A stretch of DNA of 64,000 nucleotides, taken from positions 62,001 to 126,000 of the forward strand of contig NZ_JASNNW010000010.1 in the NCBI RefSeq assembly GCF_030165005.1, written 5' to 3'. The translations under genes and the position numbers were made by a program. The notes beneath the pieces are model-generated. The model was not told the origin of the DNA and searched no databases. It worked only from the letters and a program-made list of their open reading frames with translations. The first letter of the stretch is position 1. The number at the start of each line of letters is the position of its first letter. Shown here piece after piece: positions 37,844 through 39,869 of this stretch. The DNA is from Blastococcus capsensis. GTDB lineage: Bacteria; Actinomycetota; Actinomycetes; Mycobacteriales; Geodermatophilaceae.

Positions 37844-37940
37844 GCGGCCCTCCCGTGCGCGTGACGCGGCCCGGTCGGGCCCCTGCGGGTCTTCGGCCGG
37901 TGGGCGGTCGGTGGATGCGCGCGGAGCCCGGCGACTGGGC

Positions 37941-37946
37941 TACGGT
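37941..37946 (+). promoter_or_regulatory. Probable -10 hexamer of the thioredoxin-like/UGSC operon
   Basis: TACGGT lies 7 nt before the GTG chosen as start of the thioredoxin-like gene, with no ribosome-binding site, fitting a leaderless transcript. Confidence 0.45.
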
Positions 37947-37953
37947 CGCGGGC

Positions 37954-39354
37954 GTGCGGCTTCCGGACGGCCTCGTCGCCGTGGTCAAACGCGACTGCCC
38001 GACCTGCGTGCTGGTCGAGCCGGTGCTGCGCCGGCTGGGCGCGGCCGTGTGGTGCCAGGACGACGCCGGGTGGTTCGAGGGCGACGACACCGAGCTGGAG
38101 CTGTCCTACCGCCTGGGTATCGAGACCGTTCCCACGCTCCTGCGCGTGGCGGACGGCGCGGAGACGGCGCGCGTGGTCGGGTGGAGCCGGGAGCAGTGGG
38201 CGCAGCTCACCGGGGTGCCCGGCCTGGGAGAGGGGCTGCCCGAGCACCGGCCCGGCTGCGGATCGCTGTCGGTGGACCCCTTCCGGCTCGACGCCCTGGA
38301 GGCGCGGTACGGCGGCAGCGGCCTGGCCAGCCGCCGGGTGGAGCTGGCCGACCTCGAGGACGAGCACGAGGCGCTGTTCGACCGCGGCTGGACCGACGGG
38401 CTGCCGGTGGTGCCGCCCACGCCGGAACGGGTGCTGCGGATGCTGCGCGGGACGACCCGTGACCCGTGCGAGGTGGTCGCGGTCGTGCCGCCGGATCTCG
38501 TCGAGTGCACGGTGGAGAAGGTGGCCGTCAACGCGGTGATGGCTGGCTGCCTGCCGGAGCACCTGCCGGTCGTGCTGGCCGCGCTGGAGGCGGCGTCCGC
38601 GGAGGAGTTCGCGCTGCACGGGCTGCTGGCGACGACGTACTTCTCCGGGCCGGTCGTGGTGGTGAACGGGCCGGTGGCCGAGCGGATCGGCATGAACGGC
38701 GGGGTCAACGCGCTCGGGCAGGGCAACCGCGCCAACGCCACGATCGGCCGGGCGCTCCAGCTGGTTGTGCGCAACGTCGGGGGCGGGCGCCCCGGTGAGG
38801 TGGACCGGGCCACGCTGGGCAACCCCGGCAAGTTCACCTTCTGCTTCGCCGAGCGGGAGCAGGACAGCCCGTTCGCCCCGCTCGCCGCCGACCGGGGGGT
38901 GCCGGGGAACGCGGTGACCGTCTTCGCCGGGTCGGGCGTGCAGCCGGTGGTGGACCAGCTCAGCCGCGAGCCCGGATCGCTCGCCCGCACGTTCGCGGCC
39001 TGCCTGCGCGTCAACGCCCACCCCAAGCTGCCGATGGCGTTCGACGCCATGCTCGTCGTCTCGCCGGAGCACGGCCGGGTGTTCCGCGAGGCCGGCTGGA
39101 ACCGTGCCCGCCTGCTCGCCGAGCTCGACGACCTGCTCACCCTCCCCGCCGACGAGCTGGTGCGCGGGGCCGGGGGCATGGCCGAGGGTGTGCCGGCGGC
39201 CGCCCTGGCCGGCAGCGAGCTGCCCAAGTTCCGCCCCGGCGGCCTGCTGGTGGCGCACGCCGGCGGCGACGCGGGGCTGTTCAGTGCGATCGTCGGCGGT
39301 TGGGTGGCCGGGAAGACCGGGAGCGCCCCGGTGACCAGAGAGGTGAACGCATGA
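37954..39354 (+). CDS. Thioredoxin-like domain fused to a conserved domain, partner of the UGSC selenoprotein
   Basis: Predicted 466-aa protein. Residues about 1-80 form a thioredoxin fold: redox motif CPTC in VVKRDCPTCVLVEPVLRRLG and a cis-proline loop ETVPTLLRV. A linker leads to a domain of about 330 residues with the conserved RGWTDGLPVVPPTPERVLRM, VECTVEKVAVNAVMAGC and GMNGGVNALGQGNRANATIG; I know no function for it. It overlaps the UGSC gene by 4 bp (ATGA), so the two proteins are made together; a thiol/selenol relay between them is inferred. An in-frame ATG at 37915 is an alternative start. Confidence 0.8.
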   Translation: MRLPDGLVAVVKRDCPTCVLVEPVLRRLGAAVWCQDDAGWFEGDDTELELSYRLGIETVPTLLRVADGAETARVVGWSREQWAQLTGVPGLGEGLPEHRPGCGSLSVDPFRLDALEARYGGSGLASRRVELADLEDEHEALFDRGWTDGLPVVPPTPERVLRMLRGTTRDPCEVVAVVPPDLVECTVEKVAVNAVMAGCLPEHLPVVLAALEAASAEEFALHGLLATTYFSGPVVVVNGPVAERIGMNGGVNALGQGNRANATIGRALQLVVRNVGGGRPGEVDRATLGNPGKFTFCFAEREQDSPFAPLAADRGVPGNAVTVFAGSGVQPVVDQLSREPGSLARTFAACLRVNAHPKLPMAFDAMLVVSPEHGRVFREAGWNRARLLAELDDLLTLPADELVRGAGGMAEGVPAAALAGSELPKFRPGGLLVAHAGGDAGLFSAIVGGWVAGKTGSAPVTREVNA

Positions 39355-39869
39355 GAACCGTCCTGGATCCCACCGGCGAGCGGCGGACGTCGGCCCGGGA
39401 GCTGCTGCCCCGTCCGGCGTCGCTCCGGGGCCGCAGCGTCGGCCTGCTCGACATCAGCAAGGCGCGTGGCGACGTCGTCCTCGACCGGCTCGAGGAGCTG
39501 CTGACCGCGGACGGCGCGGTGGTGCGCCGCTACCGCAAGCCGACCTTCGCCCGGACCGCCCCGGTGGACCTGCGGCACGAGATCGCCGAGCAGTGCGAGG
39601 TGGTCATCGAGGCGCTGGCCGATTAGGGCTCGTGCACGTCGTGCAGTGTGCACGACATCGCAGACCTCGAGCGCCGCGGCGTGGTCGGGGTCTTCCTCGC
39701 CAGCGAGGCGTTCGCCGAGGCGGCCCGGGTGCAGGGCGCGGCGTTGGGCTTCCCGGCGCCGTGCGTGCTCGTCCCGCACCCCGTCCAGGACCGGACGGAC
39801 GCCGAACTGCGGGCCGTCGCCGAGCAGGCCTACCCCGCGGTGCTCGCTACCCTGACGACGCGCGGGTAG
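39351..39869 (+). CDS. UGSC-family selenoprotein with in-frame TAG as probable selenocysteine codon
   Basis: Read through the TAG at 39624-39626 this gene encodes 172 residues, with residue 92 at the TAG. The codons after it give GSCTSCSVHDIADLERRG, so the motif is exactly U/C-G-S-C of the UGSC (seleno)protein family; the N-terminal half (MRTVLDPTGERRTSARELLP, VGLLDISKARGD, EVVIEALAD) and the C-terminal half (VGVFLASEAFAEAARVQGAA, PHPVQDRTDAEL) are both conserved-looking and in one frame. Usual members use UGA or Cys here. Geodermatophilaceae have been reported to decode UAG as selenocysteine. A SECIS-like hairpin starts 11 nt after the TAG. A second TAG at 39867 ends the frame. Without readthrough a 91-aa truncated product would form. 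Coupled to the upstream thioredoxin-like gene. Confidence 0.85.
39638..39656 (+). promoter_or_regulatory. SECIS-like hairpin
   Basis: GTCGTGCA (39638-39645) pairs perfectly with TGCACGAC (39649-39656) across a GTG loop. The apical TGCA/TGCA stem equals that of the E. coli fdhF SECIS, and the loop begins 19 nt after the TAG (18 nt in fdhF). An alternative stem TCGTGCAC/GTGCACGA (39630-39637 with 39648-39655) could compete. Recruitment of SelB is inferred. Confidence 0.65.

Follow-up and report, generated by a model that had tools for sequence, protein, structure and literature searches.

UAG as a probable selenocysteine codon in a UGSC-family gene of Blastococcus capsensis

How should an in-frame TAG be interpreted when it falls in the middle of an otherwise uninterrupted gene? 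This question is raised by a locus in a 64,000-nucleotide stretch of contig NZ_JASNNW010000010.1 from Blastococcus capsensis, which is referred to below as the window. A sequence-only reading of this DNA had placed a frame from 39351 to 39869, with a single internal TAG at 39624–39626 followed by codons for Gly-Ser-Cys, and these coordinates, together with an ATG at the first position, are exact. The comparisons described here indicate that this is almost certainly a genuine selenoprotein gene, carried by a Blastococcus species that uses UAG as a codon for selenocysteine (Sec). The raw sequence thereby supports a rare, naturally occurring change in the genetic code. The coordinates of the relevant features are collected in Table 1.

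Table 1. Features of the UGSC locus and of related loci in other contigs and genomes (plain numbers are window positions)
Feature	Position	Strand	Properties	Basis
Upstream partner gene	37855..39354	+	499 aa; stop overlaps UGSC start (ATGA)	
Probable UGSC-family selenoprotein gene	39351..39869	+	172 residues, Sec = residue 92	profile matches, 33 copies
In-frame TAG, probable Sec codon	39624..39626	+	between PF24696 profile positions 92 and 94	
Predicted SECIS-type hairpin	39638..39656	+	8 pairs, loop GUG, 14–32 nt past U of UAG	
Terminal TAG, stop of the same UGSC gene	39867..39869	+		frame reading
Second UGSC gene	L211:7050-8531 (own genome, contig C13)		one TAG, at Sec site	
Second tRNA-Sec of Geodermatophilus sp. 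LHW52908 (G058)	L156:1173-1263	-	UCA, 81.8 bits	
UGA-interrupted AhpD-like ORF, Geodermatophilus sp. LHW52908	L156:1579-2211	+	TIGR01926 112.3 bits, above cut-off	
Apparent UAG-Sec loci of the Coriobacteriia MAG	L138:2319-2795, L138:4293-7689, L212:1501-2808			

The interrupted gene and its hairpin

An interrupted frame is no evidence of recoding on its own, because the six frames of this GC-rich window hold 178 stops, 45 of them TAG, that are preceded by more than 80 open codons and followed by more than 75. The abundance of such long-flanked stops is what would favor either a sequencing error or the decay of a gene that has taken a nonsense mutation. The TAG at issue is lifted above chance by the homology of both its flanks. 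When the halves are scored separately, the 91 codons on the 5' side match positions 1–92 of the Pfam UGSC profile (61.8 bits) and the 80 codons on the 3' side match positions 94–171 (67.7 bits), so the TAG sits on the column that holds Sec or Cys. The two halves are thus consecutive parts of one protein, as had been supposed from the letters. With the TAG read as Sec, the full protein scores 146.7 bits against the NCBIfam UGSC equivalog (NF041046), which has a cut-off of 125, and this bears out the proposed family membership. At the position of this codon, paralogues have Cys, and other families of the order have TGA.

The history of the gene also speaks against decay or error. All 33 fetched copies of the window type (the window's own included) carry TAG at the identical codon, and their final stop is TGA in 27 copies and TAG in six. 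For the 29 copies with a 91-codon first half (406 pairs), pN/pS is 0.29 before the TAG and 0.22 after it; the second half therefore behaves as translated and needed, and the decay that the sequence-only reading had named as a sign against itself is not seen. Combined with synonymous sites that are frozen in the hairpin, and with TGA at the same codon in relatives that mostly have the same hairpin, these observations leave a damaged or misread gene with a next to negligible probability. Ordinary termination at TAG nevertheless persists, as had been claimed: it ends seven of 38 window genes (picked by a simple rule of length and GC3) and also the UGSC gene itself, at 39867. A gene finder that takes UAG for a stop splits such interrupted genes in two.

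Directly after the internal TAG lies a predicted hairpin of the SECIS type that carries GU in its apical loop. GU at this place is the rule for bacterial SECIS elements. The window's codon-to-loop distance falls within the range of 16–37 nt that is given in a part of PMC10778597. The predicted folding energy is unexceptional, with a z score of -1.8 over 27 nt (12 of 200 shuffles are as stable) and of -1.1 over 50 nt, so the case for the hairpin is a comparative one. It draws on 68 TAG-bearing genes of the family (51 UGSC, four UGSC fusions and 13 formate dehydrogenases, with 18 distinct 24-mers among them), set against eight UGSC genes of the Cys type.

The six inner pairs (16-30 to 21-25) are present in 68/68 TAG genes and the two outer pairs in 63/68 and 64/68. 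Pairing is kept through changes on both sides; pair 18-28, for example, occurs as UA, GC or CG. In register, 135 of 144 cells are paired, compared with 52–71 of 144 when the partner strand is slid by 1–3 bases. Loop residues G22 and U23 are found in every TAG gene (68/68) and in none of the Cys genes (0/8). Codon choice is restricted as well: among the 29 window-type copies, invariant residues are written with one codon only at 6/7 places in the hairpin versus 21/87 elsewhere (Fisher p 0.002). The Ser codon in the loop is AGT in 29/29 of these copies, and AGT accounts for 1/133 Ser codons outside the hairpin.

Selenocysteine machinery and related genes of the genome

The genome assembly from which the window was taken spans 4.39 Mb and is 99.95% complete. 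One further contig (C48) has selD on one strand and selC, selA and selB in a row on the other. The protein genes score 415.6 (selA), 285.8 (selB) and 388.6 bits (selD), each above its equivalog cut-off, with the SelB match covering model positions 2–341 of 581 only and the C-terminal, SECIS-binding half without a match. The tRNA-Sec matches RF01852 across all 91 positions (65.3 bits), has the anticodon CUA, and ends 32 nt ahead of the selA start codon. The sequence-only reading had held that this genome uses UAG for Sec, had pointed to selA, selB, selD and a CUA-type selC as the genes to look for, and had regarded a lack of such a selC as fatal. All four are in place, and with the Sec/Cys site of the UGSC family and the hairpin they support that claim.

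The UAG might instead be decoded as some other amino acid, either as pyrrolysine or as serine or cysteine by way of a suppressor resembling an allo-tRNA, and indeed ARAGORN labels the CUA tRNA as tRNA-Pyl with anticodon cta. However, the same tRNA fits the tRNA-Sec model over its entire length and adjoins selA and selB, and the profile search of the genome for PylS gave no match above the cut-off of 178.15 bits, the best reaching 22.7. Furthermore, the site in question holds Sec or Cys in the families to which the TAG genes belong, and the loop GU accompanies the TAG forms while being absent from the Cys forms. Decoding as another amino acid is therefore very unlikely.

Under selenocysteine decoding, the steps would presumably follow the known bacterial pathway. 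The tRNA-Sec would be charged with serine by SerRS, SelA would turn this serine into Sec with selenophosphate supplied by SelD, and SelB would carry the Sec-tRNA to the ribosome and bind the hairpin. At the internal UAG of the UGSC gene SelB would outcompete RF1, and translation would still terminate at UAGs that lack a hairpin, among them the final codon of this gene. An internal and a terminal UAG in one gene imply competition by RF1 at the internal one, and this gives some support to the idea that Sec is inserted but that the codon serves mainly as a regulated switch, with a 91-residue product or loss of the mRNA being the normal outcome at low selenium. Yet the first half alone is without the Sec/Cys site and the two halves are conserved together, which makes such a switch unlikely. 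A full-length selenoprotein read through UAG is the preferred interpretation.

Within the two families covered in this genome, UGSC and formate dehydrogenase, four genes of the UAG selenoprotein type were found, two in each. Both formate dehydrogenase genes have TAG at the Sec site, in the context NQARI-TAG-HS. In the second UGSC gene, a flavoprotein domain (PF07992, 101.4 bits, above cut-off) is fused to UGSC on its N-terminal side. This domain is nearest to thioredoxin reductase, its match to TIGR01292 scoring 187 bits, below the cut-off of 343. The UGSC part is accepted by Pfam and scores 107.3–109.9 bits in NCBIfam, below the cut-off of 125. Behind the second UGSC gene come two frames that are related to the upstream gene of the window.

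That upstream gene is weakly thioredoxin-like at its N terminus (PF13098, 20.5 bits, below the cut-off of 27). Its C-terminal domain shares 41–49% identity with domains fused behind UGSC at five other loci (L034–L037 and L170). For the two frames after the second UGSC gene, the identities are 43% and 39%. All these identities (39–49%) span 208–290 aa. Part of an earlier report (PMC2398784) describes a fusion of UGSC to an unknown conserved domain and proposes a Trx-like fold. Gene fusions and neighbors make a redox enzyme linked to thioredoxin the most likely identity of the UGSC protein. Its selenol and the Cys three residues on (U-x-x-C) would form a selenenylsulfide, which would then be reduced by a thioredoxin or by a thioredoxin-reductase domain.

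A lead of another kind is a possible distant relationship between UGSC and the C-terminal region of GrdB, which bears its Sec. In an HMM search, GrdB matches NF041046 with an E value of 6.5e-5, below cut-off, and the window protein matches the GrdB model TIGR01917 with an E value of 0.0065, also below cut-off, with Sec aligned on Sec in both cases. The comparison of the two profiles is weak (hhalign probability 23.5). An AlphaFold2 model computed from the single UGSC sequence is poor (mean pLDDT 39.4), a search of the PDB for UGSC relatives gave none that was convincing (best E 0.087), and a scan of viral contigs gave no confirmed relative.

Distribution of the codon in the family and beyond

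To judge from 112 genomes of Geodermatophilaceae, a CUA tRNA-Sec is the rule in this family and no quirk of a few strains. A tRNA-Sec was found in 108 of these genomes. It has the anticodon CUA in 101, spread over nine of 12 genera, and one of the 101 has a UCA form too. Seven genomes have a UCA tRNA-Sec alone (L051–L056, L059); they belong to genera g5, g6 and g7, which have nine genomes together. No tRNA-Sec was found in four of the 112, all of them 72–82% complete, with two in g5 and g7 and two in g9.

For UGSC, 54 genomes of the family contribute 95 matches, of which 72 have one TAG, 23 have no stop and none has TGA. Out of those 72, the genes read at the DNA level have their TAG on the Sec site in 55/55 cases. 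Across 69 UGSC loci, the residue at the site was read in all except L030–L033. Cys occupies the site at L170 and L171. Two of the UCA genomes have UGSC matches, and these contain no in-frame stop.

When 397 genomes were sampled from the order, with up to eight candidates scored per genome, 34 UGSC matches came from outside the family: 15 with TGA, 19 with no stop and none with TAG. Of the 15 TGAs, 14 (L263–L276) occupy the Sec site, and for the remaining one (L277) no Sec site was located. Eleven of the 14 have the six inner pairs and GU at the same place in the loop, and three have fewer than six inner pairs at this register. In one of the 14 (L268), the 24-base hairpin stretch is letter-for-letter equal to that of the window. 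Thus, between TGA outside the family and TAG within it, the codon differs and the signal is mostly shared, and the change that would be needed is one codon and one anticodon. Together with the UCA forms in three genera of the family, these relatives offer a natural experiment on shifts in the meaning of a stop codon.

A pattern scan of named genomes for CUA tRNA-Sec, with a pattern that leaves out tRNAs having A after GGTG in the D arm, returned 66 stretches, all of them labelled as Geodermatophilaceae or as one of its genera with the exception of L115 and L138. Family membership was checked for Blastococcus, Goekera and Trujillonella; Geodermatophilus, Modestobacter and Klenkia are genera in the scan that we take to belong to the family as well. 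Two of the matches lie on a single contig of Blastococcus endophyticus (NZ_JABGCI010000003.1; L133, L145). A SelA tree was built from 45 CUA rows, three UCA rows and L138. The UCA rows are grouped apart from the CUA rows (support 97/62, and 82/84 for the CUA side), and for the remaining four UCA loci the surrounding DNA examined contained no match to SelA. The L115 stretch comes from a MAG labelled Frankiales and falls among the CUA rows of this tree, in which L138 has a very long branch.

A TGA in a formate dehydrogenase gene of a Klenkia genome (G079, L206) was considered as a possible UGA-encoded Sec and rejected, since it lies away from the Sec site. A piece of the gene starts with this TGA, beside the place that has no Sec region, and it is the sole TGA among the formate dehydrogenase matches listed for the family. 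As a separate observation, this gene seems to be without its Sec region.

The L138 stretch belongs to the Coriobacteriia MAG S32M_St_metabat_43 (G434) and holds selA, selB and a CUA tRNA-Sec in a row. This is the one tRNA-Sec found in that genome. In the same MAG, the Sec sites of both GrdA (NF040748, 274.6 bits) and GrdB (TIGR01917, 672.1 bits) carry TAG. In its relatives, the tRNA-Sec anticodon is UCA in 49/49 cases read, out of 58 listed; 48 of these calls come from CTTCAAA or CCTCAAA, and the 49th (L225) was read separately. On these grounds the MAG is apparently an independent UAG-Sec lineage. A full-text literature search, which most subscription papers lie beyond, found no report of UAG-encoded Sec in Coriobacteriia.

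The family genome with both anticodons is that of Geodermatophilus sp. LHW52908, where a UCA tRNA-Sec stands besides the usual CUA one. An AhpD-like (peroxidase-related) ORF, 315 bases from the UCA tRNA-Sec, is interrupted by TGA in the context NRCFY-TGA-MESHAEF. Downstream of the TGA a hairpin with loop GUU is predicted, at a distance from the codon that is two bases shorter than in the UAG genes. The contig also has transposase-like ORFs, including one IS256-type match. Plasmid records share short matches with this island (at most 3% of the query, among 15 of 30 records listed), several of which fall under IS256 transposases. Contamination, stated as 1% for this genome, could still be the source of the UCA tRNA-Sec.

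A scenario that joins these cases is that UAG became a Sec codon at least twice in Actinomycetota, once in Geodermatophilaceae after the UCA genera had split off and once in the Coriobacteriia MAG, and that LHW52908 gained a UCA tRNA-Sec in addition, such that two stop codons could mean Sec with one SelA and SelB. Taken jointly, these proposals have about an even chance of being correct. If true, the Coriobacteriia case and the two-codon Geodermatophilus would mean that Sec can change its codon more than once, and can even have two at a time.

Relation to known systems

The sequence-only reading had also asserted that UAG-encoded Sec was reported in this genus before, and the literature confirms this for Blastococcus. 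Parts of PMC5330540 describe a tRNA-Sec with the anticodon CUA in three Geodermatophilaceae genomes, attribute UAG-encoded formate dehydrogenase and UGSC selenoproteins to Mukai et al. 2016, and add AhpC as a UAG selenoprotein in Blastococcus saxobsidens. In addition, a part of PMC5133445 states that UAG specifies Sec in Blastococcus. The core finding, UAG as a Sec codon in Blastococcus, is thus already known, because it was reported for this genus in 2016. Possibly new are the UCA tRNA-Sec in seven genomes of three family genera, the Coriobacteriia MAG that combines a CUA tRNA-Sec with UAG in GrdA and GrdB, and the Geodermatophilus strain in which an added UCA tRNA-Sec stands beside a UGA-interrupted AhpD-like gene.

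The UAG-Sec work of Mukai et al. 2016 (Angew. Chem.) reportedly used 75Se labelling or mass spectrometry. The system it describes in Geodermatophilaceae is the same as the present one with regard to family, genus, the CUA tRNA-Sec, and the presence of UAG in formate dehydrogenase and UGSC genes. The present case differs in coming from another genome of Blastococcus. The present analysis describes the fusion of UGSC to a domain resembling thioredoxin reductase, the shared hairpin and the boundary of the family, with possible overlap with that earlier work.

The UGA-encoded UGSC selenoproteins, as far as they are covered by part of the 2008 ocean survey (PMC2398784) and by the models NF041046 and PF24696, share the protein family and the motif with the window gene, whereas their codon is UGA and that of the window is UAG. 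Similarly, the pyrrolysine system shares the UAG codon and the CUA anticodon with the genome described here, but this genome is without PylS above the cut-off and its tRNA fits tRNA-Sec. Canonical bacterial UGA decoding has the same selA, selB, selC and selD genes and the same in-frame hairpin just past the codon, and differs in that the tRNA-Sec of the window genome has the anticodon CUA. The release factor that competes with decoding is RF1 for UAG and RF2 for UGA.
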